In this document: piece by piece, positions 74-22,945 of the stretch
Layout of the letters: every line of letters starts with the position of its first letter
Position numbering within the stretch: position 1 is the first letter of the stretch
Assembly (NCBI GenBank): GCA_016124255.1
Contig: WGOB01000009.1
Span: 1-60,913 of the forward strand
Direction of reading: 5' to 3'
DNA: 60,913 nt
Source of the DNA: Alphaproteobacteria bacterium
Lineage (GTDB): Bacteria > Pseudomonadota > Alphaproteobacteria > Caulobacterales > Aquidulcibacteraceae
Position numbers and translations under genes: made by a program
The notes under the pieces: generated by a model
What the model saw: the letters and a program-made list of their open reading frames with translations, nothing else
What the model was told of the DNA's origin: nothing
The model's database searches: none

Positions 74-1369
74 ATGGCCGAGGGCTGCACCCTAGCGCAT
101 AAATTGATCGCGCGAGCGGCGGGAAGACCGGCGGTCTCGGCTGGGGAAATCGTGAGCTGCCGGGTCGATCTGGCGTTTGCGCACGATTCGTCTGGACCTC
201 GGCGCTGGGGGCCGATGCTCGACGAACTCGGCCTCGGCTTGTGGGACCCGAGCAAGGTCGTGATCGCCTCGGACCACTACGTCCCTGCGGTCGACGCGGA
301 GAGCGCGGCGATCCTGAAGCTGACGCGTGAGTTCGCGGCGGCGCACGGCGTCGGGCGCTTCTTCGACATGGAGGGGATTTCGCACACGCTGCTGGCGCAG
401 AACGGATTGCTGGCGCCGGGCATGTTCATCGCCGGGGGCGACAGCCATTCCTGCCATGGCGGCGCGTTCGGGTGCTTCATCGCCGGCTATGGCGCAACCG
501 ACATGGCCGCCATCGTGGCGACGGGCGAAACGTGGGTCGCTGTGCCGGACGCCGATCTTGTGACGTGGCGGGGCCGGCTTGGCGCGGCTGTGTCGTCCAA
601 AGACATTATGCTGTTTCTGTGCGGCGCGCTCGGCATGGACAACGGCTTTCGGGTGGTCGAGTTCGCCGGCGACGCGGTGGCGGCGATGACGATGGACGAG
701 CGCATGGTGCTCACGAACATGAGCGCCGAACTGGGCTATGACACCGGCTTGGTCGCGCCGGACGCGGCGACGCTCGACCATATCCGCGCGCACGGCGGCG
801 TGGTTCGGGAAGACGCGATGGCGTGGCGTTCGGACGCAAACGCGGCGTTTGCGCGGCGCTTCGCGTTCGACGCCGACGCGCTCGCCCCGCAAGTCGCTGC
901 GCCGCACAGTCCCGCGAATGCAGCGCCGGCGGCGCAGCACGAGGGCGTGCGGATCGATCAGGCTTATATCGGCGCGTGCGTGGGCGCCAAGCTGGAGGAT
1001 TTGCGCATGGCGGCGCGCGTGCTGCGCGGGCGCAGGGTCGCGGGCGGGGTGCGGCTTCTCGTGGCGCCGGCGTCGACCAAGATCGCGGAAGCCGCGGCGC
1101 GCGAGGGCGTGCTGGCCGATCTCCTCGCGGCGGGAGCGCGGCTGATGCCGTCCGGCTGCGGCGCATGCGCGGGCATGGGCGCGGGGCTGTTGGCGGCGGG
1201 CGAGACATGCATCTCAACGACAAACAGGAATTTCAAAGGCCGCATGGGCCATAGCGACGCGGCGGTCTGGCTCGCATCGCCCTACACGGTGGCGGCGAGC
1301 GCGGTCGCGGGGCGCATCGTCGATCCGCGCGATATGCTCGGCATAGACGCGCAGCGGGGGGCGGCATGA
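74..1369 (+). CDS. aconitase/LeuC-family hydratase, large subunit (dimethylmaleate-hydratase-like)
   Basis: This is a 431-residue large subunit of a two-subunit Fe-S hydro-lyase of the aconitase superfamily, close in layout to LeuC and to DmdA of dimethylmaleate hydratase. Three likely [4Fe-4S] ligands are visible: Cys302, and Cys362 with Cys365 in a CGAC motif. The GGDSHSCHG-type substrate loop is near residues 117-125. The frame runs back to position 2, but the ATG at 74 puts the start just before the family fold. It overlaps the small subunit by ATGA and is followed by a lyase. A leucine role is unlikely because no leuA or leuB is adjacent and the neighbours are a lyase and amide hydrolases. 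The specific substrate (an alkylated maleate) is inferred from context. Confidence 0.85.
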   Translation: MAEGCTLAHKLIARAAGRPAVSAGEIVSCRVDLAFAHDSSGPRRWGPMLDELGLGLWDPSKVVIASDHYVPAVDAESAAILKLTREFAAAHGVGRFFDMEGISHTLLAQNGLLAPGMFIAGGDSHSCHGGAFGCFIAGYGATDMAAIVATGETWVAVPDADLVTWRGRLGAAVSSKDIMLFLCGALGMDNGFRVVEFAGDAVAAMTMDERMVLTNMSAELGYDTGLVAPDAATLDHIRAHGGVVREDAMAWRSDANAAFARRFAFDADALAPQVAAPHSPANAAPAAQHEGVRIDQAYIGACVGAKLEDLRMAARVLRGRRVAGGVRLLVAPASTKIAEAAAREGVLADLLAAGARLMPSGCGACAGMGAGLLAAGETCISTTNRNFKGRMGHSDAAVWLASPYTVAASAVAGRIVDPRDMLGIDAQRGAA

Positions 1370-1863
1370 GCGGGCGCGCCTGGGTGTTCGGCGATCGCAT
1401 CGACACCGACGTGCTGGCGCCTGGGGCGCTGATGAAGCTGCCGGCGGCGGCGCTCGCATCGCATTGTCTGGAGGCGGTGCGGCCGGGGTTCGCTGCGCAG
1501 GTGAAGCCGGGTGATTTCGTCGTCGCGGGCCGCGCGTTCGGCGTCGGCTCATCGCGGGAGCAGGCCGCGATCTCGCTGAAGCTTCTCGGCGTGCGCGCGG
1601 TGATCGCGCAGAGCTTTGCGCGCATCTTTTTCCGCAATGCGTTCAATGTCGGCCTGCCCGCGCTCATCTTGGAAGACGCCGCGCAGATCGGCGACGGCGA
1701 CGCGCTCGACCTCGATTTCCGATCCGGCCGATTGACGGACGAGTCGTCCGGGGAAACGTTCCAGGTGCAGCCGATTCCGGAGCACTTGCTGCAAATCATC
1801 GATGCCGGGGGCCTCATGGCGTATCTGAAGAACCGCCGTTCGGGGAGCGCAGCCGCACCATGA
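1366..1863 (+). CDS. aconitase/LeuD-family hydratase, small subunit
   Basis: This 165-residue protein is the swivel-domain partner of the preceding large subunit, together forming a heteromeric hydro-lyase of the LeuCD/DmdAB type. The N-terminus VFGDRIDTDVLAPG and the loop FGVGSSREQA (about residues 58-67) are the small-subunit hallmarks. The Ser-Ser-Arg loop contributes to substrate binding in the family. Its start overlaps the large-subunit stop (ATGA at 1366), and its own stop overlaps the next start (ATGA at 1860), so the three genes are translationally coupled. Length is typical for the small-subunit class. Confidence 0.88.
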   Translation: MSGRAWVFGDRIDTDVLAPGALMKLPAAALASHCLEAVRPGFAAQVKPGDFVVAGRAFGVGSSREQAAISLKLLGVRAVIAQSFARIFFRNAFNVGLPALILEDAAQIGDGDALDLDFRSGRLTDESSGETFQVQPIPEHLLQIIDAGGLMAYLKNRRSGSAAAP

Positions 1864-2738
1864 CCACGCTCAAGCAAAGATTGGACGCCGGCCCCGTGCT
1901 TGCGCCGGGGGTGTTCGATGCGCTCTCGGCGCTGCTCGCCGCCGAAGCCGGGTTTCAGGCGATCTACCTCTCCGGCGCCGCGATCGCGTACACGCAACTC
2001 GGGCGCCCCGACATCGGATTGGTATCGGCCACCCAGGTGGCCGATGTCGTCGCGCGCGTGCGCGACCGGGTGTCGTTGCCGCTGATCGTCGATATCGACA
2101 CCGGGTTCGGCAATGCGATCAACGTGAAGCAGACTGTGCGTCAGTTCGAGCGCCTCGGCGCCAGTGCGCTGCAGATCGAAGATCAGACGACGCCCAAGCG
2201 CTGCGGCCATTTGCAGGGGAAGGAATTGATCTCGGGCGAGGAGATGGCGGGCAAGGTGCGCGCCGCGGTGGACGCGCGGCAGAGTGCGGAAACGCTGATC
2301 ATCGCGCGGACGGATGCAATCGGGGTGGAGGGGCTCGGCCGCGCGCTGGAACGCGCGGCGCTCTATCGCGAGGCCGGGGCGGATATTCTGTTTCTGGAAG
2401 CGCCGCAGACGCTGGAAGACATGACGCGGATCGGCGCAGCGTTCGGCGCCGGCGTGCATCTCGTCGCCAACATGGTGGAGGGCGGGCGTACGCCGCTGCG
2501 TTCGCTGAGCCAGCTCTCGGATCTTGGCTTCCGGCTGGTGATTACGCCGGGGGCGCTGGTGCGGGCGTTCGCGTTCATGGGTCGCGCGTTCTTCCGACAG
2601 CTGCGCGACAGCGGGTCCACCACCGGCAGCCTCGATCGCATGCTCGATTTCGGCCAGATCAACGCGCTTCTCGGCTTGCCGGAGATGCTGGAGGAGGGAC
2701 GCGGCTACGCGTCCTGGCGCAAAGACGCCGCGGAGTGA
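1860..2738 (+). CDS. isocitrate lyase/PEP mutase-family lyase (2,3-dimethylmalate lyase-like)
   Basis: This 292-residue TIM-barrel enzyme belongs to the methylisocitrate lyase/PEP mutase superfamily, which cleaves 2-alkylmalate or isocitrate-type acids to a 2-oxoacid plus a carboxylate. Visible signatures are the Mg-binding DIDTGFGN loop (Asp78, Asp80) and KRCGH at residues 113-117 with catalytic Cys115, the hallmark of the lyases rather than the mutases. It follows the hydratase small subunit with an ATGA overlap. Hydratase plus lyase in one operon parallels DmdAB-Dml of Eubacterium barkeri nicotinate fermentation, which yields propionate and pyruvate. Methylisocitrate lyase is an alternative, but no methylcitrate synthase is adjacent. 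Confidence 0.85.
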   Translation: MTTLKQRLDAGPVLAPGVFDALSALLAAEAGFQAIYLSGAAIAYTQLGRPDIGLVSATQVADVVARVRDRVSLPLIVDIDTGFGNAINVKQTVRQFERLGASALQIEDQTTPKRCGHLQGKELISGEEMAGKVRAAVDARQSAETLIIARTDAIGVEGLGRALERAALYREAGADILFLEAPQTLEDMTRIGAAFGAGVHLVANMVEGGRTPLRSLSQLSDLGFRLVITPGALVRAFAFMGRAFFRQLRDSGSTTGSLDRMLDFGQINALLGLPEMLEEGRGYASWRKDAAE

Positions 2739-3857
2739 TCAGCGGATAATCCCGTCGCGCGCGAGCCGCTCGATGACGTCGCGCTGGCGCTGGATCACTT
2801 CGGGGCGTTCGATCATGCGCCCATCCGGCGTACGGTTGGCCGGCGCAAGCGCCGTGTCGCGATAGGGCCCTTCGAAGGCGTCGAGCGGCAGGCGCGAAAG
2901 CAGATTGGTCATGCCGGTGCGTCGGCGCGCGTCGCGCAGCGCGGCGACGTCAAGGACTGCGTTCGCATTGAAGGATTCGCCGGGCCCCGCCTCCGCCAGG
3001 GTGCGCCCGTACCAATCGATGACGATGCTCATCGCGTCGGTCGCGTGCGCCGGCGCCGGCGTGCCGTAAATGCCGGCGGAATTGGCGGACACGACATAGG
3101 CCATGTTCTCCACTGCGCGCGCCATCTTGGCGATGTGCTTGGGCGTGAGGTTCGGCGAAAACACTTCTGACGTCGGGTGCACAAGAATTTCCGCGCCCTT
3201 GAACACGTGCATGCGCGCGATCTCGGGGTAGAGAATTTCTTCGCTCGCGACCGAGCCCAGGAGGCCGATCTCGGTGTCGGCCACTGGGAAGATCGCATCG
3301 GCGCCGTAGGCGTCGAGATAACGGTCCCACACGTCATAGGGCGTGGGGGTGTAAAGCGAAATCATGCGCCGATAGCGCAAAACGGGATCGCCGTTCGGTC
3401 CGAAGATTACGTTCGACTGGAAATAGAGGTCGGGGAAGCGCGCGTCGTTCTCGTAATGATTGCTGCAGAGAAAGAGACGATGGCGCTGCGCAATCTCTCC
3501 GATCGCCGCGCTTTCCGGGCCGTCGACGTCGATGGCGGCCTTGTCCTGCCAGAGCTGGCGCGTCTCGCCGAGCGGGTAGCCTGTCATCCAGTATTCGGGG
3601 AGCACGACAAGGCGCGCATCGTAGCCGTTGAAGCCTTGCAGAAAGCCGCGTGCGGCCGCGATCTCGCCGCCGACTCGGGCGATTGCGGCGCGCATCCGCT
3701 CGCGCGCGGCGCCACGGGTTTGATCCTGGTTGACGGCGTCGCAGCGCGTCTGCAGCGCAAGCGCGGTGAAGCGAGGCGGCGCGGCCTGAGCTTGCGCGGT
3801 CGACATGGGAAAAAGCGCTCCTGCGAGAGTGGAGAGGAGGAAGCCGCGGCGCGTCAC
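2739..3857 (-). CDS. Tat-exported nitrilase-superfamily protein with altered active site
   Basis: This 372-residue protein starts at GTG 3857, overlapping the upstream TGA as GTGA. Residues 1-26 form a twin-arginine signal (TRRGFLLSTLAGALF, then AQAQA), so it should act in the periplasm. The rest is a carbon-nitrogen hydrolase fold: Glu88 sits in LVVLPEYWMTGYP, but the Lys position in the YRK motif reads YRR (Arg164). The nucleophile Cys of CYDxRFPE is Ser205 in SEEILYPE (codon AGC at 3243-3245). The triad is therefore Glu-Arg-Ser rather than Glu-Lys-Cys. It is the last gene of the amidase operon and ends base-adjacent to the converging lyase gene. Function may be an altered amidase or a non-catalytic binder. 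Confidence 0.8.
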   Translation of the reverse strand: MTRRGFLLSTLAGALFPMSTAQAQAAPPRFTALALQTRCDAVNQDQTRGAARERMRAAIARVGGEIAAARGFLQGFNGYDARLVVLPEYWMTGYPLGETRQLWQDKAAIDVDGPESAAIGEIAQRHRLFLCSNHYENDARFPDLYFQSNVIFGPNGDPVLRYRRMISLYTPTPYDVWDRYLDAYGADAIFPVADTEIGLLGSVASEEILYPEIARMHVFKGAEILVHPTSEVFSPNLTPKHIAKMARAVENMAYVVSANSAGIYGTPAPAHATDAMSIVIDWYGRTLAEAGPGESFNANAVLDVAALRDARRRTGMTNLLSRLPLDAFEGPYRDTALAPANRTPDGRMIERPEVIQRQRDVIERLARDGIIR

Positions 3858-4765
3858 GCGCAGGCCTCGACGAGTTCGGACGCGGTCGCGGTCCAGACCG
3901 CGTCGTCGGTTGCGAGCGCGGAAAGCAGCGCATCGAGCGCCCATATCCGGAACGGCTGCCCGATCACATAGGGCGTCAATGTGAAGGCGAGGGTCTGCCC
4001 GCCGAAACGATCGTGCTCGGATTGCAGGAGCGCGTTCGCCTCCAGGATCTGCGCGCGCCATTCTTCCTCGGTCTGGCGCTGATCGATGAGCAGTTTGCGG
4101 TCGTCGAGTTCGTTGCTCAGCGGCACGCAGTGCAACAGGCCTGCGGCGGTGCGCATCGCGACGGGCGTGTTGTCCATCTCCCAATCGAGGCAGATGTCGA
4201 ATCCGGCGGCGCGGACGATGTCCGGCGTCGCGAAGCTCTGGCTGCGCGCGGGACTCAACCAGGCGCGCGGCGCGAGGCCGGCGGCTGCGAACGCGGCGCG
4301 GACCTTGTCCACGCGTGCGGCCTCTTCGGTTTCGACGAGGCCGCCCCAATGCAGCGTATCGGTGTCCCAGCCGTAGGCCGCGATCTCATGGCCGTCCGCC
4401 GTGATGGCTTCGATCAACGGCGCGGCGCGGGTGAGCAGGACGGCGTTGACGGCGAACGTGATCCGAACGCGATGGCGCTTAAGCGCATCAAGCAGGCGGA
4501 AGGCGCCGACGCGGACGCCGTAATCGCGGGTCGTGTAATGGCGCAGATCAGGATAGGGCGTCTGCATCGCGCCTGGATGTTTGAACGGCTTGCCGCTGGG
4601 ATTGAGCATGTGGAATTCGAGCGGCGCGACGATGCAGGCGGCGACCTTGGCGCCGTTCGGCCAGGCGCGGCGCGGCGCATCGGCGCGCGGGCGCCATTCA
4701 TAGCGATCCTGATCCATGCCGCGCCGGCGCAGCGGATAGCGCAGGTAATCTTCCGGCAGGCTCAT
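3854..4765 (-). CDS. NodB/PuuE-type polysaccharide-deacetylase-fold protein, divergent paralogue
   Basis: This 303-residue protein is a paralogue of the upstream gene at 4762-5700. It keeps the family segments DWEMDNTP (residues 194-201) and PLSNELDD (215-222), but the conserved HG motif is replaced by AYGWDTDT (Tyr131 where the partner has His115). The family includes metal-dependent cyclic amide hydrolases such as PuuE allantoinase and cyclic imidase. Loss of the His suggests altered chemistry or a structural role, perhaps as a heteromer with its partner. Start and stop overlap both neighbours (ATGA at 4765, GTGA at 3857), so stoichiometric coupling is plausible. No signal peptide is seen. 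Confidence 0.78.
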   Translation of the reverse strand: MSLPEDYLRYPLRRRGMDQDRYEWRPRADAPRRAWPNGAKVAACIVAPLEFHMLNPSGKPFKHPGAMQTPYPDLRHYTTRDYGVRVGAFRLLDALKRHRVRITFAVNAVLLTRAAPLIEAITADGHEIAAYGWDTDTLHWGGLVETEEAARVDKVRAAFAAAGLAPRAWLSPARSQSFATPDIVRAAGFDICLDWEMDNTPVAMRTAAGLLHCVPLSNELDDRKLLIDQRQTEEEWRAQILEANALLQSEHDRFGGQTLAFTLTPYVIGQPFRIWALDALLSALATDDAVWTATASELVEACA

Positions 4766-5700
4766 GGCGCGAACCCCACGCCGGGGCGCGCCAGCCCCCG
4801 CCGATCGATGTCGGCGATGGTCTGATCCCAGCAGTGCTCGCGATAGAAGCCGGCAATCTCGACCGCGGTTGCGAACCAGACATCGTCCGCATGCGACGCA
4901 ATGTGGCGCAGCGCCTCTTCGAAGGGCCGGATGCGGTGGGCCTGGGAGACGAGATAGGCGTGGAGAGGGATGCACATCACCACGCCGGAGCGTTCCCCCT
5001 CTTGCAGCAATTGATCGAAATGCCGCTTCAGCACATCGGCGTAGCGCCAGGGCGACATCGCCATCGCGCCATAGGTGATGACGTCGTTCACTTCCAACGA
5101 ATAGGGCATGGAGACGACCTTGCCGCTCTTCGTCTTGAGCGGCTGGGGCTGATCGTCCTGGAAGAGATCGCAGGTGTACCAGAAGTCGAGCGCGGCGATC
5201 AGATCGAAGGTGCGCTCGGTGTGGGTGAGGGCGGGCGCCAGATAGCCGCGGATGCGCTGGCCCGTCGCCTTTTCGACGCTTGCGATCGAATCCTCGATCA
5301 TGGCGCGCTCCTGCGCCTCGCTCATGCCGTAGGAATAGCGCGTGTTGTAGATGCCGTGGCTGAAGAATTCCCACCGGCGCGCGACGCACGCCTCGATGAT
5401 TTCGGGATGGTGGTCGATCAGCGCGGTTGAGAGCGAGATCGAGCCGCGGATGGCGTATTTGTCGAGGAGCTCCATCAGCCGCCAATGGCCGATGCGATTG
5501 CCCCAATCGCGCTGAGAATAGCCGACGACATCCGGCGCAGGCCGCGGCCAGCCCGGGCGCGACGGATTCGCCGGCGGGTCGAACTCGTAGAACTCGATGT
5601 TCGGCGCAACCCAGAACGCCAGCTTCTTGCCGCCGGGCCAAGCGATCCTGGGGCGGTCCCGGTAGGGCCAGTAATCGTAGAGGTTGGGATCGGCGTGCAT
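4762..5700 (-). CDS. NodB/PuuE-type deacetylase-fold cyclic amide hydrolase (putative imidase)
   Basis: This 312-residue cytoplasmic protein has the polysaccharide-deacetylase (NodB) fold of the allantoinase/cyclic-imidase branch. The motif FSHGIYNTRYSYGMSEAQE around residues 113-131 carries His115, Gly116 and Asn119. DLFQDDQP (178-185) and PYSLEVND (199-206) match segments of this subfamily. The ATG at 5700 overlaps the upstream stop as TGATG; a longer ATG start at 5721 is less likely. No export signal or cell-wall-binding domain is present, which argues against a true polysaccharide substrate. Ring opening of a cyclic imide or ureide is the best inference, given the amidase gene just upstream. 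Confidence 0.8.
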   Translation of the reverse strand: MHADPNLYDYWPYRDRPRIAWPGGKKLAFWVAPNIEFYEFDPPANPSRPGWPRPAPDVVGYSQRDWGNRIGHWRLMELLDKYAIRGSISLSTALIDHHPEIIEACVARRWEFFSHGIYNTRYSYGMSEAQERAMIEDSIASVEKATGQRIRGYLAPALTHTERTFDLIAALDFWYTCDLFQDDQPQPLKTKSGKVVSMPYSLEVNDVITYGAMAMSPWRYADVLKRHFDQLLQEGERSGVVMCIPLHAYLVSQAHRIRPFEEALRHIASHADDVWFATAVEIAGFYREHCWDQTIADIDRRGLARPGVGFAP

Positions 5701-6395
5701 CACCGGCGCGCCTTCAGCCAATCGCGGGCTTCAGCGACGTCGACGACGTCGGCGTATTTGAGCTGCATGTCGGTGAGGTTGGCGAAATGGTAGCTCTCGT
5801 GTTTGTCGGCCACGCATTGCTCGGGAACGATCGTGCGGTAGCCATGGCTCAAGCTGTCGACGACGGTGGCGCGCACGCAGCCGGAGGTCGATCCGCCGGT
5901 GACGATGAGCGTGTCGGCTTTCGACCAGACGAGATAGCTCGCGAGCGGCGTCTCGAAGAAGGCGGACGGCATGCGCTTGTCGAACACCAGGTCGTCGGGG
6001 CCGATTTCGCAGCGCGGATCGAAGGCGTGGCGGTCGGAGCCCGCCTTGATGTTCTGAAGGCTGTCAGGCGTGTTCGTCCGTGTGCCCCAGATTCCGGCGT
6101 CGCCAGCGTCCGCCTTATAGCAAACCCGCGTCCAGATCACCGGCATGCCGGCGGCGCGCGCCAGCGCGGCCAGGTCGTTGACGTAGTCGATCTGGTTTGG
6201 ATCGGTGACGTAGGCGGTCTTGGGAAATAGATCTGGGCGCGTGTACGCCTGCTGAAAATCGATGTTCACAAGGGCGGCTTTGGCGCCGAAACCGAAGCGG
6301 GCGCGGGCGGGATTGGCGCGCACCTCCTCGAAGAGTTCGCGCGCGGTGCGGTCGGACCGCGCCATGGTCGACTCAAACTTGGGCAGGTCGCTCAA
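5700..6395 (-). CDS. isochorismatase-fold amidohydrolase (maleamate/N-carbamoylsarcosine amidase-like)
   Basis: This 231-residue cysteine hydrolase is the first gene of the operon. The triad is Asp46 (VNIDFQQAY), Lys140 (FDKRMPSAFF) and Cys173 (GGSTSGCVRATVVDS). The STSGCVR(A/T) string is typical of maleamate amidohydrolase (NicF) and N-carbamoylsarcosine amidase rather than of true isochorismatases. I chose the TTG at 6395 because AAGGAG stands eight bases upstream. The ATG at 6365 has no comparable ribosome site. It would hydrolyse a half-amide to the dicarboxylate plus ammonia, fitting between imide opening and the hydratase. N-carbamoyl amino acids are an alternative substrate class. Confidence 0.85.
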   Translation of the reverse strand: MSDLPKFESTMARSDRTARELFEEVRANPARARFGFGAKAALVNIDFQQAYTRPDLFPKTAYVTDPNQIDYVNDLAALARAAGMPVIWTRVCYKADAGDAGIWGTRTNTPDSLQNIKAGSDRHAFDPRCEIGPDDLVFDKRMPSAFFETPLASYLVWSKADTLIVTGGSTSGCVRATVVDSLSHGYRTIVPEQCVADKHESYHFANLTDMQLKYADVVDVAEARDWLKARR

Positions 6396-6430
6396 GAGGC
6401 ATGCTCCTTGGCTCAAATATCGCGCCGGCG

Positions 6431-6450
6431 AAACAAAGGGTATGTCAATC
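6431..6450 (-). promoter_or_regulatory. candidate operator, island motif copy 2
   Basis: Read on the minus strand this is GATTGACATACCCTTTGTTT, in transcription orientation 36 bp upstream of the TTG start at 6395. It agrees with the copy at 6628-6645 at 14 of 16 core positions. Confidence 0.55.
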
Positions 6451-6627
6451 CGACCCCGCAAGGGAATATGTCCCCGGGGCGTTCGCCCCATCGGCGGGCT
6501 CCGGCAAAACTGACGCCAAGACAGTGGCTTAGCGTCATTCCGACACGATCTGGGCCGCCAAGATCATGTGGCCGAACATCCACAAACCCCCGATGAAAGA
6601 CCGGCTACAGCGCGAATTGGCTTGCAG

Positions 6628-6645
6628 AAATGATATACCCTTTGC
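6628..6645 (+). promoter_or_regulatory. candidate operator, island motif copy 3
   Basis: The sequence AAATGATATACCCTTTGC lies 59 bp upstream of the TonB receptor ATG. It matches the copy at 15581-15598 at 15 of 18 positions and copy 2 in the opposite orientation. Confidence 0.55.
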
Positions 6646-6704
6646 TTAATGGCAAGGGCAGTCGTGCGTCGTGCGGGCGCGCAGCGGCGCTCGGGGAGGA
6701 CATC

Positions 6705-9170: not shown

Positions 9171-9189
9171 ACGCGTTCCCGCCTGAGCT

Positions 9190-9221
9190 TCGGGCCCGGT
9201 GAAAGCCGGGCCCGATCTTTT
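9190..9221 (+). terminator. Rho-independent terminator after TonB receptor
   Basis: A perfect 10-bp stem, TCGGGCCCGG paired with CCGGGCCCGA, encloses the loop TGAAAG and is followed by TCTTTT. It sits 20 bp after the receptor stop codon. It covers a possible GTG start at 9199 of the next frame, so that start is unlikely. Confidence 0.8.
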
Positions 9222-9243
9222 CGGGGCGCTGGTTCGCGGCTGC

Positions 9244-10260
9244 GTGCGCCTTGCCTTCGTCTGCGTTGCGCTCGCCATCGCGCCTGCCGCCGCGCAGGAC
9301 GCGCGTGGGGCGCTTGACCGTGACCTCGCGGAATTCGCGTCCTGGTTTGAAGGCCGCTTCGACAACGAATTGCAGGTGTTCTTCGAGCCGGACCTCAACA
9401 CGCCCGAGGCGGCGCGGCACGATCGCGTCCATTCGAGCTTCCGCCGCATCGAGCTTCCCGCGATCGGCGCGCACGTCTTCTATGTCGAGCAGCATAGCGG
9501 CGGCGATCCTGACGCGATCTATCGCCAGCGCATCTACACGCTGCGCGCCGATCATGCCGTGAACGCCATCCGTCTCGACATCCTGACCCCGCGCGATCCG
9601 GACGCGCTGCGCGGCGCGCATCGCGATCCGGCGCGGGCTGCAGCGCTCACGCCGGGGGACCTTACACCCCTTCACGACGGCTGCGCCGTCTACTGGCGCA
9701 GGCAGGACGCGCAATTCGTCGGGCAGACCGAGCGCGGCGCATGCCGCATCCAGTCCTCCCGGTCGGGACGCACGATCATTGTGGAGGATGATCTCGTGCT
9801 CAGCGCCGACGCGATCTCGATCCATGACCGTGCGACCGATGCGGACGGCGGCTACGCCTACGGCAATCGCGCCGGCGTTCCGCATCATTTGCGCCGCGTG
9901 CGGCCGTTCGCGTGCTGGGCGGCGGTTCTGCGCGGCGCACGCCATGGTGACGACGGCGCGGGCGCCGCCGACAGCGACTGGTTCTTCCGACGCGGCGTGC
10001 TGCTTCACGATCAGGGCGGCGCCGCCGTCATCGAGACGGACGAGACGCCCGCGCGGCGGATCACGTTGAAGCTGAGGCGCGTCGAATGGCCGACGGGAAC
10101 CAATCGCCCATCGCTTACGCTTTACGTCATGGAGGAGGGGAGCGACCGCGCCGTCTCCTACGCCTGGGGCGAGTATGACGCGGAGCGGCTTGGGATCAAC
10201 CTGCGTTGGATGCAGACGAGCTGCACCCATGCGCCCGACGAACTCTGGAACCTGCCTTAG
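9244..10260 (+). CDS. secreted CpcT/CpeT-family protein (chromophore lyase homologue)
   Basis: This 338-residue protein resembles the CpcT/CpeT (DUF1001) family, whose cyanobacterial members attach bilins to phycobiliproteins. Family-like segments are the start LAEFASWFEGRFDNELQVFF, the string HVFYVEQ, YRQRIYTL, and a GC pair in HDGCAVYWRR. The GTG at 9244 gives a clean signal peptide (RLAFVCVALAIAPAAAQD). A start at 9199 would lie within the terminator hairpin of the receptor. It is longer than cyanobacterial CpcT (about 200 residues), with an additional C-terminal region. Relatives occur outside cyanobacteria with unknown roles, so bilin binding is inference. Its place between the receptor and the oxidase suggests a periplasmic or surface substrate-binding task. 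Confidence 0.72.
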   Translation: MRLAFVCVALAIAPAAAQDARGALDRDLAEFASWFEGRFDNELQVFFEPDLNTPEAARHDRVHSSFRRIELPAIGAHVFYVEQHSGGDPDAIYRQRIYTLRADHAVNAIRLDILTPRDPDALRGAHRDPARAAALTPGDLTPLHDGCAVYWRRQDAQFVGQTERGACRIQSSRSGRTIIVEDDLVLSADAISIHDRATDADGGYAYGNRAGVPHHLRRVRPFACWAAVLRGARHGDDGAGAADSDWFFRRGVLLHDQGGAAVIETDETPARRITLKLRRVEWPTGTNRPSLTLYVMEEGSDRAVSYAWGEYDAERLGINLRWMQTSCTHAPDELWNLP

Positions 10261-10342
10261 CCGCGCCTTCAAGCAGCGCGCGTTTACGTTCATCGGCCGC
10301 TCCGGCACGCCGCTGCGGCGCGGGCGGGAACGTTGTCTTCGG

Positions 10343-11761
10343 CTATGCCGCAGCCGCGAGCACGGCTGCGGCGGCCGCCTCGCCGGATTCCACCGCGCCC
10401 TCCATGCCGGTGTAAATCCTGGAGAGGTGCTCGCCGGCGAAGTGCAGCCGGCCGGCGGGCGAGGCCATGACGTTCGCCCAGCGCCCGATCTGGCCGGGCG
10501 CGAAATGTGCGTACGCGCCGCCGGTGAGCGCGGTTTCATCAGTCCAGCGGATCACGCGGCGCAAACGGACGGCGCCGCCGCTCGCCGGGCGCAGGGCAGC
10601 GAGCGTATTGCGGGCGAGGTCCTCGATCGCCGCGTCGGATTGCCCGGCGAAGCGCGCGCATCCCGCGCCGTTGATCCAGCACAGCAGCATGCCGTTCGGC
10701 GCGCCCGCGGCGTCTCGCTGACAGAACACGCGTTCCAGCGGCCCGTCGGTCCACATGTCGGGCGCAAGGCCGTCGCGCTCCCAGTACGGCTGCTCAACAT
10801 CGAGATAGAGCTGGATGATCTGCGTGTAGGGCAGCGATGCGATGGCGTCACGCTGCGCCGCGCCTAGCGGCGCGTCGAGCGTGATGCGCCGGAGCGCTGG
10901 AAACGGCAACGCGCAGATCGCAAACGCGGCGCTGGCGCCCGCGCCGTCCTCGACGTCCACGCGCACGCCGTCCGTTGTCGCGCGGATCGATGTGACGTGG
11001 GAATTCAGGCGCACAGGGCGCCTCAGCGCGGCCGCCATCGCCTCGGGCAGACGCTGCGCGCCTGCGGCAACCGCGCCGACGGGGCCGAAACGGCGATCCT
11101 CCGCGTAAAGCGCTGCAGTGCGCCAGAGATTGATCATTGAATACGTGTCGCTGCGGTTGCCGTTGAGCGCGATGTCGACGAGGCGCCGTGCGGGTTCGGC
11201 GAATCCCGCCTCGGCCAGGAAGCGCGCTGCGTCGACATCGTATGCGGCGGCATCCGTCGCATGCCATGCGTCGAGCGTCGTCAGAGGGTTGGCGCGACCG
11301 GCGGCGGCGAAGAGGGCGCCCGCCGGCGACGCCGCGCGGAACCCCTCGGGAAAGGGATTCTCGTCGGCGTCGGCCCACGCCGCTTGCGAGATGAGACGCT
11401 CGCCGATTGCGATCATCGTCGCGCGCGGCGCGCCCGTTTCTGGAGCAATCGCGATGCCGAACGTCTCCGCCGCCGCGCGAAAGCGCGCATATCCCGCGCC
11501 GACCTGGCTGCCGCCGGCCTCCGGACGATCGGGCAGATCGTCAAGCGTGAGCACGCGGCCGCCGACCCGAGACGACGCTTCGAGCACGAGAACGCGCATG
11601 CCCGCGGCCTCCAGCATGCGCGCCGCGGCGAGGCCCGAGAGACCGGCGCCAATCACGATCACGTCGGCGTCGTGACGCGCGCCTCTCGCGGGAGACTGAC
11701 ACGCGGCGAGCCAGGCGCCGGCAGCCAGGACGCTGCGGCGTGTTGGAGCGGGGCTAGGCAT
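10343..11761 (-). CDS. Tat-lipoprotein flavin amine oxidase
   Basis: This 472-residue FAD enzyme is of the monoamine oxidase/protoporphyrinogen oxidase superfamily. It begins with a twin-arginine signal (PTRRSVLAAGAWLAAC) whose Cys is a plausible lipid-attachment site, so it is probably exported folded with FAD and membrane anchored. The dinucleotide-binding motif VIVIGAGLSGLAAARMLE and the GG motif SSRVGGRVLTL follow, and the C-terminus has a FAD-binding HFAGEHLS segment. I chose the ATG at 11761 because GGGAGA precedes it; it overlaps the stop of the upstream symporter. It is the last gene of the receptor-symporter-oxidase unit. The substrate is unknown. Confidence 0.85.
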   Translation of the reverse strand: MPSPAPTRRSVLAAGAWLAACQSPARGARHDADVIVIGAGLSGLAAARMLEAAGMRVLVLEASSRVGGRVLTLDDLPDRPEAGGSQVGAGYARFRAAAETFGIAIAPETGAPRATMIAIGERLISQAAWADADENPFPEGFRAASPAGALFAAAGRANPLTTLDAWHATDAAAYDVDAARFLAEAGFAEPARRLVDIALNGNRSDTYSMINLWRTAALYAEDRRFGPVGAVAAGAQRLPEAMAAALRRPVRLNSHVTSIRATTDGVRVDVEDGAGASAAFAICALPFPALRRITLDAPLGAAQRDAIASLPYTQIIQLYLDVEQPYWERDGLAPDMWTDGPLERVFCQRDAAGAPNGMLLCWINGAGCARFAGQSDAAIEDLARNTLAALRPASGGAVRLRRVIRWTDETALTGGAYAHFAPGQIGRWANVMASPAGRLHFAGEHLSRIYTGMEGAVESGEAAAAAVLAAAA

Positions 11762-13385
11762 CGATTGGTCTCCCACGCGTCTCTGGCGCCAAGACGATCA
11801 TGATCACGAAAGCGATTGCGGTGATCGTGAAAGGATACCAGAGCCCGGCGTAGATGTTTCCGGTCGCGGTCATGATCGCGAAGGCGATCGCCGGCATCAG
11901 CCCGCCGAACCAGCCGGAGCCGACATGATAGGGAAACGACAGCGCCGTGTAGCGGATCTGCGCCGGGAAGAGCTCCACCAGAAACGCAGCGAGGGGCCCA
12001 TACATCGCGGTCGCCGCAACGATGAAGAGCGTCACGATCGCGATGGCCAGGGGCACATTGACTTCCGCTTGCGCGGCGCCGTCCGGGTAACCCGCCGTGC
12101 GCAGGGCCGCGCGCAGGCGCGTGCGGAAGTCGTCCTGCGTCGTACGAAGCGCCGTCGTGGAGAGGCCATGGGCGTCGGGCGCTGCAAGTGCAACGTCTCC
12201 AATGTGGATTGCGGCGCGCCCGGCGCGCGGTTGCGTCTCAAAGCGAACCGCGTGCGCGGCGAGTGCAGCGCGCGCGATGTCGCACGAGGACGCAAAGCGC
12301 GCTGCGCCGAGGATGTCGAGCTGCAGCGCGCACTCCGCCGGATCGGCGTAGAGCGTGACGGCGACCGATCCGCGCGCTTCTGCGAGGCGCGGATTGGCGG
12401 CCTGGGTGAGCGCCTGGAAACCCGGGAAGTATGCGATCAGCGCCAGCGCCATGCCGAACAGCATCAGCGGCTTGCGCCCCACATGGTCTGACAGCCAGGC
12501 GAAGGCGACGTAGAGAAATGCGGAGATCACGCTGACTGTCAGCATGATCGCAGTGACAGTTGGCCCCGAGACGCGCAGTACGCGCTCAAGGAAATACTGA
12601 GCGTAGAAATACCCTGTGTAGTAGACGACGCTCTGCGCCATCATCACGCCGAAGAGCGCCAGGATGACGAGTCCCAGATTGCGGCGGTTGAGGAAGGTCT
12701 GGCGCAGCGGCGCCGTCCCGACGCGGCCCTCGGCGCGCATCTGCTGGAATACCGGGCTCTCGTGCAAGCTGAGGCGGATCCAGATCGAGATCGCAATCAG
12801 CACTGCGGACAACAAGAACGGGATGCGCCAGCCCCAGGCGGAGAATGCGTCCTCGCCGAGAATATTGCGCACGATGAGGATGACGCTGAGCGCCATGATC
12901 AAGCCGAGCGCGGCGGAGGTCTGGATCCAGCCGGTGTCGCGTCCGCGCCGGTGCGGCGCGCTGTGTTCGGCGACGAAGATCGCAGCGCCGCCGTATTCGC
13001 CGCCGAGCGCGAAGCCCTGCACGATGCGGAGGAGGACAAGCCCGACCGGCGCAGCGAGGCCGACATCCGCGTAGGTGGGCAAAAGCCCGGTTGCGAACGT
13101 GGCGACGCCCATGATCACAATCGTGTAGAGGAAGGCGCCTTTGCGTCCCCGTGCGTCGCCGATGCGGCCGAAGACGAGCGCGCCGAACGGCCGCGCGATA
13201 AAGCCGGCGGCGAACGTCGCAAGCGTCATCACAAACGCCTGGTTCTCCGGCAGCGCGGCGAAGAAGTTCGCCGCAAGGACCGACGCCATCGCCCCGAAGA
13301 TGAAGAAGTCGTACCACTCAAACGCGGTGCCCGCGGCCGCAGCCGCGATCACCCGGCGCAGATCGGCGGCAGGCCGCTCCGTCAC
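11754..13385 (-). CDS. MHS-family (MFS) metabolite:H+ symporter with inserted periplasmic domain
   Basis: This 543-residue inner-membrane transporter is of the metabolite:proton symporter branch (like ShiA, ProP and KgtP). It shows the family opening FEWYDFFIFGAMAS and the cytoplasmic motif GRIGDARGRKGAF. About 12 hydrophobic segments are present. Between the segment LMLFGMALALIAYFPGFQ and the final helices there is a hydrophilic stretch of roughly 120 residues with two Cys, longer than in classic members. The start is GTG 13385, 15 bp after the stop of the TonB receptor. Members carry organic acids or zwitterions, so it may import an acid released in the periplasm. Confidence 0.85.
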   Translation of the reverse strand: MTERPAADLRRVIAAAAAGTAFEWYDFFIFGAMASVLAANFFAALPENQAFVMTLATFAAGFIARPFGALVFGRIGDARGRKGAFLYTIVIMGVATFATGLLPTYADVGLAAPVGLVLLRIVQGFALGGEYGGAAIFVAEHSAPHRRGRDTGWIQTSAALGLIMALSVILIVRNILGEDAFSAWGWRIPFLLSAVLIAISIWIRLSLHESPVFQQMRAEGRVGTAPLRQTFLNRRNLGLVILALFGVMMAQSVVYYTGYFYAQYFLERVLRVSGPTVTAIMLTVSVISAFLYVAFAWLSDHVGRKPLMLFGMALALIAYFPGFQALTQAANPRLAEARGSVAVTLYADPAECALQLDILGAARFASSCDIARAALAAHAVRFETQPRAGRAAIHIGDVALAAPDAHGLSTTALRTTQDDFRTRLRAALRTAGYPDGAAQAEVNVPLAIAIVTLFIVAATAMYGPLAAFLVELFPAQIRYTALSFPYHVGSGWFGGLMPAIAFAIMTATGNIYAGLWYPFTITAIAFVIMIVLAPETRGRPIDA

Positions 13386-13400
13386 GAGGAGGCGTGAGCC

Positions 13401-15551
13401 TTAGAACCGCACGCCGAGATCGACGCCCCAAGTCAGCGGCGGGGCCGCGTAGACGCTGAACGATTGCGCCGTCGATGCGCGCCAATATTCCTCGTCGGTG
13501 AGGTTCTGGCCCCAGAGCGCGACGCGCCAGCGGCCCCCGGGAGATTCCCAGCCGACGCGGGCGTTGATGACGGCGCCAGGATCAGTGAGCGCATGCGGTG
13601 GGCCGTTGGCGACGAGGCTCCAGGAATCGTCTTCGAACTGCACATCGCCGCGCAGCGAAAGTTCGCCGCCATGGAGCGGGGTGCGGTAGACGAAGCCGAC
13701 AACGCCTTTGTATTCCGGCGCGTTCTTGAGTTCGAGGCCGAGGGCGCATTCGACGGTGACGACGCCGCCGGGGCACGATGCGCCGGAATTGGTCAGGCCG
13801 CCGGCCTGGGCGAGGGTGACGGAGGTGTATTCCCCGTCGAGCACGCCAAGATTGCCGGTGATGGAGAAATTGTCCGTCACTGCGAGATCGAACTCGACTT
13901 CGACGCCCTGGATTTCCGTCTCATCGACATTGAAGCGCGTGAAGCCGAGACCCGGGACCGTCGCGCCGATCTGGAGGTTCTCGTAGGAATTGAAGAAATA
14001 GGTTCCATTGAGGCGCAGGCGGCGATCGAACAGATCGCCGCGGAAGCCGATCTCGAAGGAGTCCAGCGTCTCTTCCGCCACCGGCAGGAAGCAGGCCGTG
14101 GCGCTGAAGCAATCCGGGGACCAGCCGCCCGACTTGAAGCCGGTTGAATAGGCGCCGTAGACCATCAGATTGTCCGTAAACTGATGGTCGTATTTGAGCG
14201 TGAAACTGGTGTTCTCGAAGTCCTGGCTTGCGGTGCGGGTGAGGGCGGCGTTGGAGAGGTTGGCGCCGAAGAAATCCTTGGTCTCGTCGGTGTAGCGGAC
14301 GCCCGCCGTCAGCGTGCCTTGGGCGGTGACGTCGAACGCGCCCTGCACGAATACGGCTGTGGATTCGGTGTCGAACGTCAGCGAGAACGGCGAGACGAAC
14401 ACGGTGTCGAGCTGGACGTCTTCAGTGAAGTAATAGACTCCAGCAACGAAGTTGAACGGCCCCGCGAAATTCGACGTGATCGTGAATTCCTGGCTGAACT
14501 GATCCTGGTCGGTCTGTTGGAGATACGGAAAGCCGATGCGGGATGCGAGTTCATCCTCCATCTGGCGATAGCCGCTGAGGGAGGCGAAGGTGAAATTGCC
14601 GATCTCGCCGGTGATGTTCACCGAGGCGCCTTGCGACTCGATCTGGCTGCCGTAGGCAGTGAAGCAGCCGATCGGCAGGAAGGCCGCCGGCGTCGCCGCC
14701 GAGCAGGTGACGCCGGGCAACGGCTCGATGGTGAAAACGTCGCCATCGGCGTCATTCGTAGGCGCTGCGCTATCGGGCGTCGGATCGGAATTGTCGTCGG
14801 TGTAGTCGTACGCGACCAGGATGTCCCAGTCGGGGTTGAATTGGTGGGAGAGGCTGATGCGGAAGGCGTCCGTCTCAACCGCGCCGACGTCGCGTGCTTG
14901 CGCTGCGAATGCGCCGTTCGGGGTGAGGCGCCAGAAACCGTCGCGTTCGCGATGGAGCGCGGTCACGCGCACTGCGGTGTCCGGGGTGAACGCGTAATTG
15001 CCCGTGCCGCGGAAATCGAGGCGGCCGTCGCTGCCGACAGTGGCGCCGAGATCGAGGCTCGCCTCGTTCTGGGGACGCACGCTGATCAGCTTGATGGCGC
15101 CGCCATTGGTGTTGCGCCCGTAAAGCGTGCCTTGCGGCCCGCGGAGGACTTCGATGCGTTCGATGTCGACAAGGTCGAGCAGCGAGCCGACCTGGCGGCC
15201 GATATAGATCCCATCGACATAGACGCCGACGGCGGGATCGACTGCGCCGCGGGATTCGTCTTCGCCGACGCCGCGCAGGAAGATCCGTGCGGAATTGGCC
15301 GTGCCGGTGCCCGTCGCGATGGAGATGTTCGGCGTCTGATATTGCAGGTCGAGCACGTCGGCGACCTGGCGTTCCTCCAGTTGCGCGGCGGAGAGGGCGG
15401 TCACGGACGCCGGAACGTCTTGGATGTTCTCCGCGCGCCGCTGCGCCGTCACCACGATTTCGTCGGATGTCGCGTCCTGCGCCAGGACCGGGGCTGCAAA
15501 CCCGATGCCGAACGCGGAAAGCGCCGTCGCCACAAGAAGCCGATGCCGCAT
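13401..15551 (-). CDS. TonB-dependent receptor
   Basis: This 716-residue outer-membrane receptor has a signal peptide ending VLAQD, then DEIVVTAQRRAENIQDVP (TonB box and plug start), FLRGVGEDESRGAVDPAVG, and the plug landmark RGPQGTLYGRNTNGGAI. It ends with the barrel motif VDLGVRF. The ATG at 15551 is preceded by GGGGAG; the in-frame ATG at 15569 lacks a site. It heads a unit with the symporter and amine oxidase. Two palindromic copies of the island motif lie upstream, suggesting shared control with the other catabolic genes. It belongs to the large receptor class common in Caulobacterales and sphingomonads; the ligand is unknown. Confidence 0.9.
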   Translation of the reverse strand: MRHRLLVATALSAFGIGFAAPVLAQDATSDEIVVTAQRRAENIQDVPASVTALSAAQLEERQVADVLDLQYQTPNISIATGTGTANSARIFLRGVGEDESRGAVDPAVGVYVDGIYIGRQVGSLLDLVDIERIEVLRGPQGTLYGRNTNGGAIKLISVRPQNEASLDLGATVGSDGRLDFRGTGNYAFTPDTAVRVTALHRERDGFWRLTPNGAFAAQARDVGAVETDAFRISLSHQFNPDWDILVAYDYTDDNSDPTPDSAAPTNDADGDVFTIEPLPGVTCSAATPAAFLPIGCFTAYGSQIESQGASVNITGEIGNFTFASLSGYRQMEDELASRIGFPYLQQTDQDQFSQEFTITSNFAGPFNFVAGVYYFTEDVQLDTVFVSPFSLTFDTESTAVFVQGAFDVTAQGTLTAGVRYTDETKDFFGANLSNAALTRTASQDFENTSFTLKYDHQFTDNLMVYGAYSTGFKSGGWSPDCFSATACFLPVAEETLDSFEIGFRGDLFDRRLRLNGTYFFNSYENLQIGATVPGLGFTRFNVDETEIQGVEVEFDLAVTDNFSITGNLGVLDGEYTSVTLAQAGGLTNSGASCPGGVVTVECALGLELKNAPEYKGVVGFVYRTPLHGGELSLRGDVQFEDDSWSLVANGPPHALTDPGAVINARVGWESPGGRWRVALWGQNLTDEEYWRASTAQSFSVYAAPPLTWGVDLGVRF

Positions 15552-15580
15552 GTGAATCTCCCCATTCACGACCAGCGGTT

Positions 15581-22747: not shown

Positions 22748-22945
22748 CGAGTGCGGCGGCTCGGGCGCGTCAGCGGGGGGATCACGCGGCTTGGTGCGCG
22801 ACACCGCCGACATGAGCCCTACGCCGATCAGAACCAGCGCGCCGACGCCGATCCAGGTCGGCGGGACGTTCAGCAAATATGCGCCATAGCCGAGCCCGGC
22901 CAGCAGTACGAGAAAACCGAGGACATAAAGCGAAAACGCGGACAT
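22739..22945 (-). CDS. small two-helix membrane protein
   Basis: This 68-residue protein has two hydrophobic segments (FSLYVLGFLVLLAGLGYGAYL and WIGVGALVLIGVGLMSAV) and a hydrophilic Pro-rich tail. The ATG at 22945 follows GGAG with proper spacing; a longer frame to 23026 has no site. It resembles small Alphaproteobacteria-wide membrane proteins of unknown role. Confidence 0.65.
   Translation of the reverse strand: MSAFSLYVLGFLVLLAGLGYGAYLLNVPPTWIGVGALVLIGVGLMSAVSRTKPRDPPADAPEPPHSSA

Follow-up and report, generated by a model that had tools for sequence, protein, structure and literature searches.

The window analysed here, a 60,913-nucleotide stretch from an Aquidulcibacteraceae genome (Alphaproteobacteria, Caulobacterales; assembly GCA_016124255.1, contig WGOB01000009.1, positions 1 to 60,913), opens at the edge of an approximately 50-kb catabolic island. 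Its core encodes an isochorismatase-fold half-amidase (Ami), two putative cyclic imide or amide hydrolases related to the allantoinase PuuE (PDA1 and PDA2), a LeuCD-type hydratase and a carbon-carbon lyase of the dimethylmalate lyase (Dml) type. The island probably serves to open alkylated imides to half-amides, to convert these to C4 diacids and then to pyruvate plus an acid or acyl-coenzyme A (acyl-CoA), the imides perhaps deriving from a pigment in those islands that also carry CpeT/CpcT-family and TonB-dependent receptor genes. As the window starts at base 1 of its contig (C57 in our numbering, in a genome of 97 contigs), the island is cut at the LeuC-type gene. The LeuC-, LeuD- and Dml-type genes occupy the + strand (74-2738) with successive overlaps of 4 bases, and converge with a head-to-tail group of Ami, PDA1, PDA2 and a nitrilase-superfamily gene on the - strand (6365-2739); beyond Ami lie a TonB receptor and the CpeT-family gene (+ strand), followed by a flavin amine oxidase, a major facilitator superfamily (MFS) permease and a second TonB receptor (- strand; Table 1). 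Profiles and residues indicate that all genes named in a preceding sequence-only reading (the amidase, two PuuE-like hydrolases, LeuCD, the lyase, two TonB receptors and CpeT) are present and intact, and the nitrilase-superfamily protein (2739-3854, - strand), amine oxidase and permease add to its list.

Gene identities were checked through Pfam and NCBIfam profile scores, PDB relatives and residue inspection; relatives are coded as loci (L numbers) and genomes (G numbers), with G000 denoting the window's own genome and W the window locus. Ami carries an STSGCVR stretch with Cys163 at the catalytic position, and the isochorismatase-fold Asp-Lys-Cys triad is kept across its family (Asp in 80, Lys in 81 and Cys in 81 of 81 aligned members). 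Its nearest solved relative is N-carbamoylsarcosine amidohydrolase (26st, E 3e-33); 3ot4/3uao also match (E 1e-23), of which we take 3uao to be NicF, the PDB listing reading putative isochorismatase. The nearest solved relative of PDA1 is PuuE allantoinase (87 bits to PuuE-like 1z7a vs 27 to 3qbu), and the SHG and LHAYL histidines are kept in all 69 aligned members. PDA1 falls outside the branch of the cyclic imide hydrolase (CIH) and HxnM (HpPgdA type), being nearer PuuE and having an aligned stretch, SHGIYN, without the second His of the HGxxH stretch that we presume to mark the HpPgdA branch. The cut-off of the PuuE allantoinase model (TIGR03212, 424.6 bits) is reached by neither PDA1 (108 bits) nor PDA2 (57 bits), nor by a third PuuE-type protein of the island, PDA3 (242 bits).

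The large hydratase subunit exceeds two general models of its family (PRK00402, 488 bits for a cut-off of 385; hacA_fam, 438 for 386) and keeps the iron-sulfur cysteines C302, C362 and C365, which together with a separate small subunit that is likewise over its cut-off places the enzyme in the LeuCD/HacAB/DmdAB group. A role in leucine biosynthesis was rejected, as the subunit remains far under the leucine equivalogs (leuC, 214 of 560 bits; LEU2, 373 of 611) and the genome holds other aconitase-family genes, including a stronger match of LeuC length on contig C50. A further LeuC/HacA-like gene, matched as two pieces, is found on contig C58 (8362-9570) of the same genome. The lyase has the petal death protein, 2-methylisocitrate lyase and 2,3-dimethylmalate lyase as PDB relatives and does not reach the methylisocitrate lyase PrpB equivalog (281 bits vs a cut-off of 354); the active-site stretch KRCGH at residue 113 does not fix its substrate, since this motif is common to the whole superfamily.

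A scan of species genomes with Ami gave 345 relatives, the best 80 of which were kept as loci with flanks of up to 10 kb. Locus genes were called by a codon-usage gene caller that misses genes (the CoA transferases of L083 and L102, seen otherwise, are not in its count), LeuC-family counts from its clustering may take in leucine-biosynthesis genes, and Dml denotes over 50% identity to the window lyase. Far from never standing together in homologous clusters, as might have been the case for the proposed set, PDA1 shares the locus with the amidase in 66 of these 80 cases, and the set recurs on plasmids. A lyase is present in 42 loci, of the Dml type in 8 and of the HMG-CoA-lyase type in 34, with a LeuC-type gene in 40 of the 42 (all 34 of the latter and 6 of the 8 Dml loci, the remaining two, L041 and L082, ending at or just past Dml or LeuD). 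CoA transferase III accompanies the HMG-CoA-lyase type in 32 of 34 loci, and PDA1 is found in 33 of these 34 and in all eight Dml loci. The position of the cleavage step is filled by two unrelated routes, a Dml-type enzyme or CoA transferase III together with an HMG-CoA-lyase-type enzyme. A hacA-type LeuC tracks Dml (6 of 8 Dml loci vs 1 of 72 others, p 6e-7 with relatedness ignored), and none of the 80 loci combines both lyase types. Strict mutual exclusion in general is ruled out by the plasmids pJE1 and pTomTYG65b, each of which carries both types along with two LeuCD pairs.

Plasmid records with Ami number 21, of which 8 were inspected, one lacking annotation and the feature tables being incomplete. 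An Acidiphilium plasmid (L153) holds CoA transferase, the HMG-CoA-lyase-type gene, Ami, PDA1, PDA2, LeuC and LeuD in a compact operon, and Burkholderia plantarii p1 (L155) holds LeuC, LeuD, a flavin adenine dinucleotide (FAD) oxidoreductase and Dml with divergent Ami, PDA1 and PDA2, at identities to the window proteins of 53% (LeuC), 50% (LeuD), 54% (Dml), 62% (Ami), 59% (PDA1) and 44% (PDA2). With further copies of the core on Sphingomonas and Sphingobium plasmids, the carriers include other orders and another class. The Acidiphilium, B. plantarii and Sphingobium (L158) plasmids are typed as conjugative and pJE1 (L156) as mobilizable. On a Comamonas plasmid, Ami, PDA1 and PDA2 occur with no LeuCD listed within 10 kb. 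The FAD oxidoreductases beside LeuCD in L153 and L155 are 48% alike, and such an enzyme could desaturate a succinate.

PDA3 ties a second block of genes to this core. It lies 18-28 kb from PDA1 in four genomes (G071, G075, G076, G080) and 6 kb from it in a fifth (G074), and in the window's genome it sits on a separate contig, C85. There it is grouped with a short-chain dehydrogenase/reductase, a HapK-like protein (PF11639), VOC proteins, an HpcH/HpaI lyase, a mesaconyl-CoA-hydratase-type protein and an acyl-CoA dehydrogenase, as well as two CoA transferases III, an MmgE/PrpD protein, an AMP-binding protein, an amidase, an enoyl-CoA hydratase, an aldehyde dehydrogenase, an FAD oxidase and a GntR regulator, some of these identities being given by similarity to annotated relatives only. 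Much of the block is contiguous with Ami-PDA1-PDA2, in similar order, in G076, G071, G080 and G075, and a rearranged version is present in G274 and G074, the latter a low-GC genome whose genes were identified by similarity. The C85 block is taken as a further part of the window's island. Its hydratase and lyase resemble RipB/Ich and RipC without reaching these equivalogs (235.6 of 340 and 196.9 of 375 bits). Beyond two stronger aconitase-family genes, a third is found in all 9 island genomes, inside the island stretches read in five (G000, G074, G075, G094, G274), on the contig of PDA1 at a distance of 40-50 kb in three (G071, G076, G080) and on another contig in G012.

From the observed gene content, linkage, recurrence and profile relations we infer each reaction and substrate of the following scheme. 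PDA1, PDA2 and PDA3 would open the five-membered rings of alkylated maleimides or succinimides to half-amides, from which Ami would free ammonia to leave a dialkylated C4 diacid. The maleate form of the latter would be hydrated to a dialkylmalate by the LeuCD-type enzyme and then cleaved by the Dml-type lyase to pyruvate and a fatty acid, namely propionate, butyrate or glutarate according to the side chains, a step that CoA transferase III and the HMG-CoA-lyase-type enzyme would take over in relatives. Saturated or alkylidene succinates would enter the C85 module of the itaconate/methylsuccinate type, with its CoA transferases, acyl-CoA dehydrogenase, hydratase, citramalyl-CoA-lyase-type protein and MmgE/PrpD. 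A LeuCD-type hydratase ahead of a pyruvate-forming lyase would require an alkylated cis-unsaturated C4 diacid and an itaconate/methylsuccinate-type module would require alkylated succinates, and since ring hydrolases and half-amidase sit upstream of both branches, a mixture of dialkylmaleimides and dialkylsuccinimides is the likely input. The proposal that imide, half-amide, diacid, malate and cleavage form one pathway gains from the recurrence of the set as a unit, on plasmids included, while its substrates stand as candidates. Where an island also has TonB receptors and CpeT, a large precursor would be the source of the imides. The receptors would import it, exported CpeT and further beta-barrel proteins would handle it, and oxidoreductases, either exported or cytosolic, would oxidise it; the best candidate for this precursor would be a linear tetrapyrrole (a phycobilin or chlorophyll catabolite).

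Parts of this scheme have counterparts in described systems. DmdAB and Dml of anaerobic nicotinate fermentation pair a LeuCD-type hydratase with a lyase of the isocitrate lyase/phosphoenolpyruvate mutase superfamily for the use of a dialkylmaleate; the present pair is alike in its composition but belongs to Alphaproteobacteria, and its diacid would come from an imide via the half-amide. In Aspergillus nidulans, nicotinate use involves HxnM, a PuuE-related cyclic imide hydrolase of the polysaccharide-deacetylase superfamily, followed by the amidase HxnN, an order mirrored by PDA1 and Ami; however, the accessible part of that report has HxnM acting on the six-membered glutarimide and likens it to HpPgdA and CIH (PMC9304392), whereas PDA1 scores far better to PuuE. 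Unlike PuuE and N-carbamoylsarcosine amidohydrolase themselves, PDA1 and Ami sit with C4-diacid enzymes. A cluster kind shown to use itaconate and methylsuccinate in Cupriavidus and Pseudomonas resembles C85, as far as the available text describes it, in CoA transferase III, a RipB/Ich-type hydratase, a RipC-type lyase, and an acyl-CoA dehydrogenase and MmgE/PrpD protein that serve methylsuccinate (PMC12290011); in contrast to these clusters, the C85 proteins score under the NCBIfam cut-offs, and the island joins three PuuE-like proteins, amidases, the LeuCD-lyase branch, TonB receptors and calycins. Finally, CpcT/CpeT phycobilin lyases are of the same fold family as the window CpeT by profile, but the latter, known here by its sequence, is apparently exported, adjoins TonB receptors and stands in a catabolic context.

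The suggestion of a large chromophoric precursor such as a bilin finds some support in this CpeT protein and its surroundings. Membership of the CpeT/CpcT family (PF06206) is clear at 107.8 bits for a gathering score of 21, and a profile built from 8 CpeT homologues matches the phycocyanobilin lyase CpcT (4o4o, E 1e-16). The N-terminus of the window protein is hydrophobic and signal-peptide-like and predicts export of CpeT, as the twin-arginine-like N-terminus does for the amine oxidase, and a periplasmic handling stage is plausible because signal-like N-termini are seen on these two and on the nitrilase-like protein. CpeT is rare, being found in 5 of 385 evenly drawn Alphaproteobacteria, yet three of the five also carry Ami, itself present in 23 (one-sided p 0.002 with the window genome, 0.018 without it). 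Among 101 near relatives, a PDA1 orthologue is found in 20, CpeT in 20 and both in 13 (p 4e-7). In G000, G012, G074, G075 and G274, CpeT is separated from Ami or PDA1 by about 3 to 40 kb. Of 27 CpeT loci, 6 (W, L041, L118, L133, L147, L148) have CpeT immediately next to a TonB receptor of the same orientation, receptors being recognised by similarity to four references, two from W and two from L041 and L133. Next to the receptor of L041 (1733-3823) are two CpeT homologues, one split over several frames, reflecting frameshifts or assembly errors. A supposed link between CpeT and LeuCD in two genomes of genus g6 (L147, L148) was dropped, that LeuC looking by sequence like the leucine-biosynthesis type.

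Other candidate beta-barrel proteins accompany the core, with DUF3598-like proteins in 24 and DUF1838 in 14 of the 80 loci. A DUF3598-like island protein from outside the window models as a calycin beta-barrel (predicted local distance difference test, pLDDT, 92.8, a statement on fold only) and matches BFA1 (Z 17.1, root-mean-square deviation 2.5, 137 aligned), the DUF3598 structure 2o62 (Z 15.3), nitrobindin (14.4) and CpeS 4tq2 (14.1). The DUF1838 model (pLDDT 87) has best Z values of about 10 to 12, tied with unrelated barrels, and its resemblance is no more than suggestive; searching the PDB with a profile of either alignment (DUF3598-like or DUF1838) returned nothing meaningful. HapK, the namesake of the C85 protein, is part of a tripyrrole pigment cluster. 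The small products of tetrapyrrole oxidation include ethylmethylmaleimide, methylvinylmaleimide and hematinic acid, and phycobilin oxidation also gives such imides. Chlorophyll and heme yield imides of this kind on oxidation, and maleimides and hematinic acid are reported from senescent leaves and lake sediments, according to the portion of the report available (PMC7318184). These data are consistent with a tetrapyrrole source, which the CpeT linkage, CpeT-receptor pairs, calycins and HapK-like genes favour and the CpeT-free islands and plasmids described below do not; because large islands occur in genomes without CpeT, we hold this source as a tentative attribution, appreciably short of even.

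Several findings weigh against the imide pathway or its pigment source. At the core, neither LeuC nor a lyase is found in 35 of the 80 loci and PDA1 is lacking from 14, some loci being short; Caulobacter-type loci (e.g. L033-L038) have Ami and CoA transferase but lack PDA1 in the surrounding 10 kb, the amidase persists in some lineages that have lost or never had the other genes of the set nearby, and two plasmid loci (L157, L159) list no PDA or LeuCD near Ami, which stands there in unrelated contexts. In the HEIAAYG stretch, the PDA2 of the window carries Tyr at a position that is His in 46 of 58 aligned members, and it may be a non-catalytic partner of PDA1; the protein at 2739-3854 lacks the nitrilase Glu-Lys-Cys triad. 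As to the source, 7 of the 101 relatives carry CpeT but lack a PDA1 orthologue and another 7 have the orthologue but lack CpeT, and by genus the two co-occur in 6, stand alone in 5 and 4 and are both missing in 14 (p 0.11, not significant), so relatedness explains much of their co-occurrence. At E 1e-5, CpeT is missing from the genomes of three of the fullest islands (G071, G076, G080), though TonB receptors and DUF3598-type genes are there; in the g6 genomes read, Ami and PDA1 are far from CpeT, its receptor and the rest, and the CpeT contigs read of G344, G391 and G423 hold no amidase or PDA (those of G391 being short). The scanned proteins, which cover part of the island genes, include no recognisable enzyme for heme or bilin cleavage, and the DUF3598-like calycin model resembles nitrobindin and a spirocyclase no less than CpeS. 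On an informal look, a few of the organism names among the amidase relatives suggest algae or cyanobacteria (such as Candidatus Phycosocius and Sandarakinorhabdus cyanobacteriorum), whereas the majority do not. In the plasmid stretches inspected, no CpeT or TonB receptor is listed beside the compact core.

These absences fit a core that degrades small alkylated imides of other origin, such as soil or plant metabolites, humus, fungal alkylmaleic or itaconic compounds or agrochemical imides, with CpeT and the TonB receptors forming a separate uptake system nearby. The Acidiphilium, Burkholderia and Sphingomonas plasmid operons, which combine the core with MFS genes (two of them with porin genes), the failure of the window CpeT to match anything in the plasmid collection, the CpeT-free large islands and the distance between CpeT and amidase in g6 genomes are all as it would predict. 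Chance neighbourhood would, however, have to explain why a family so rare in the class stands immediately before Ami, on the same strand, in L070, L074, L082, L090, L093 and L109, and why DUF3598-type, DUF1838 and HapK-like proteins recur near the core; we regard such an origin as a serious contender that nonetheless remains doubtful. A different objection concerns the first two steps, since the nearest solved relatives of PDA1 and Ami are ureide enzymes, making a ureide substrate possible for both: the PuuE-like proteins would open hydantoin- or allantoin-like rings, Ami would free N-carbamoyl groups, and LeuCD and the lyase would act on an unrelated substrate. The comparatively high PuuE score of PDA3 agrees with this. 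Nevertheless, LeuCD and one or other lyase type recur beside Ami-PDA1-PDA2, including on plasmids of other orders and another class, where they would be useless to a hydantoin pathway, and the C85 module is of a C5-diacid type, so that we consider a ureide pathway improbable.

Membership of Ami in the fold family of maleamate amidohydrolases, with its 3ot4/3uao matches, could also be read as a nicotinate- or nicotine-like pathway ending in plain maleate or fumarate. Since the scanned window and island proteins contain no nicotinate hydroxylase, 2,5-dihydroxypyridine dioxygenase or maleate isomerase, and an alkylmalate-type lyase would be superfluous there, we find this very hard to credit. Riboflavin catabolism was likewise considered and set aside, its gene set differing as far as the source describes it.

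With alkylated imides retained as the probable substrates, the boldest version of the scheme would be the complete bacterial breakdown of linear tetrapyrroles, phycobilins and chlorophyll catabolites alike. Exported CpeT-type proteins would strip or bind bilins and pass them to their paired TonB receptors, oxidoreductases would cut the methine bridges, and the three PuuE-like imidases would direct ring A, as an alkylidene- or dihydro-succinimide, into the itaconate-like branch and rings B to D, as hematinic acid and ethylmethyl- or methylvinyl-maleimide, into the citraconate-like branch. We consider this unlikely, the existence of CpeT-free islands lowering its odds; were it true, it would explain how some of Earth's most abundant pigments return to central metabolism. 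In the open-access literature searched, outside of which most subscription papers lie, no bacterial gene set was found that would carry these imides, or bilins, into central metabolism, which is weak evidence of novelty; for a bacterium transforming sedimentary porphyrins to single-pyrrole compounds, the accessible text names only general oxygenases and dehydrogenases (PMC8669743). More broadly, the island represents a partly plasmid-borne unit, widespread among aquatic and soil bacteria, that fits imide use step by step, with named genes and cultured carriers in which to test it. If the scheme holds, it would provide a natural source for methylsuccinate-type acids, whose environmental importance was deduced from gene clusters in the available part of the report on them (PMC12290011).

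Table 1. Genes of the island edge in the window, with positions, strand and profile support.
Gene product	Positions	Strand	Profile match
LeuC/HacA-type hydratase large subunit, putative dialkylmaleate hydratase, DmdA-like	74..1369	+	PF00330 E 1e-78
LeuD/DmdB-type hydratase small subunit	1366..1863	+	TIGR02087 LeuD/DmdB 180 bits, cut-off 109
Dml/methylisocitrate-lyase-type C-C lyase, KRCGH	1860..2738	+	PF13714 E 8e-48
Nitrilase-superfamily protein, twin-arginine-like N-terminus	2739..3854	-	PF00795 E 1e-23; N-terminus TRRGFLLSTLAG
PDA2, PuuE-like cyclic imide/amide hydrolase (putative), divergent	3854..4765	-	PF01522 E 4e-8
PDA1, PuuE-like cyclic imide/amide hydrolase (putative)	4762..5700	-	PF01522 E 4.5e-9
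Ami, isochorismatase-fold half-amidase, N-carbamoylsarcosine/maleamate amidohydrolase type	5700..6365	-	PF00857 E 1e-32
TonB-dependent receptor 1, directly upstream of CpeT	6630..9170	+	PF00593, PF07715
CpeT/CpcT-family protein, signal-peptide-like N-terminus, C-terminal extension	9199..10260	+	PF06206 E 8e-31
Flavin amine oxidase, twin-arginine-like N-terminus	10343..11776	-	PF01593 E 1.6e-54
MFS permease, metabolite:H+ symporter type	11754..13385	-	2A0106 330 bits, tricarballylate symporter TcuC 205 bits, both under cut-off
TonB-dependent receptor 2	13401..15569	-	PF00593, PF07715

Among the accompanying genes, the amine oxidase has homologues in L041, L069 and L082 and in the islands of G074 and G075; it resembles many amine oxidases and offers no hint of its substrate. 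Relatives of the second receptor, 57-58% identical, lie upstream of the amidase in L072, L087 and L103. The protein at 2739-3854 is a conserved non-canonical or inactive nitrilase with a twin-arginine-like signal within a catabolic island, having Ser at the catalytic Cys position in all 35 aligned family members and Arg at the Lys position in 33 of them, and would be either an abnormal nitrilase-type hydrolase or an enzyme using another nucleophile. A loose RR motif occurs near the start of 25 of the 35 nitrilase-like members vs 15 of 81 Ami proteins, and the Ami examples shown lie inside a conserved stretch of the protein proper. The Ami homologues of L157 (8001-8660) and L159 (10001-10663), 55 and 62% identical to that of the window, adjoin a 4-hydroxyphenylacetate-hydroxylase-type monooxygenase and flavin reductase, together with amidases and RidA in L159, and this amidase family seems to serve another pathway there. 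Downstream of the island, the window carries a tRNA-Ser(GCT) at 22814-22909. Finally, L114 encodes a methyltransferase-domain protein (2244-3653) with an uncharacterised N-terminal half, next to a protein of about 120 residues with no Pfam match (1888-2244), and this pair is adjacent in 29 of the 30 loci, among the 80, that have both.

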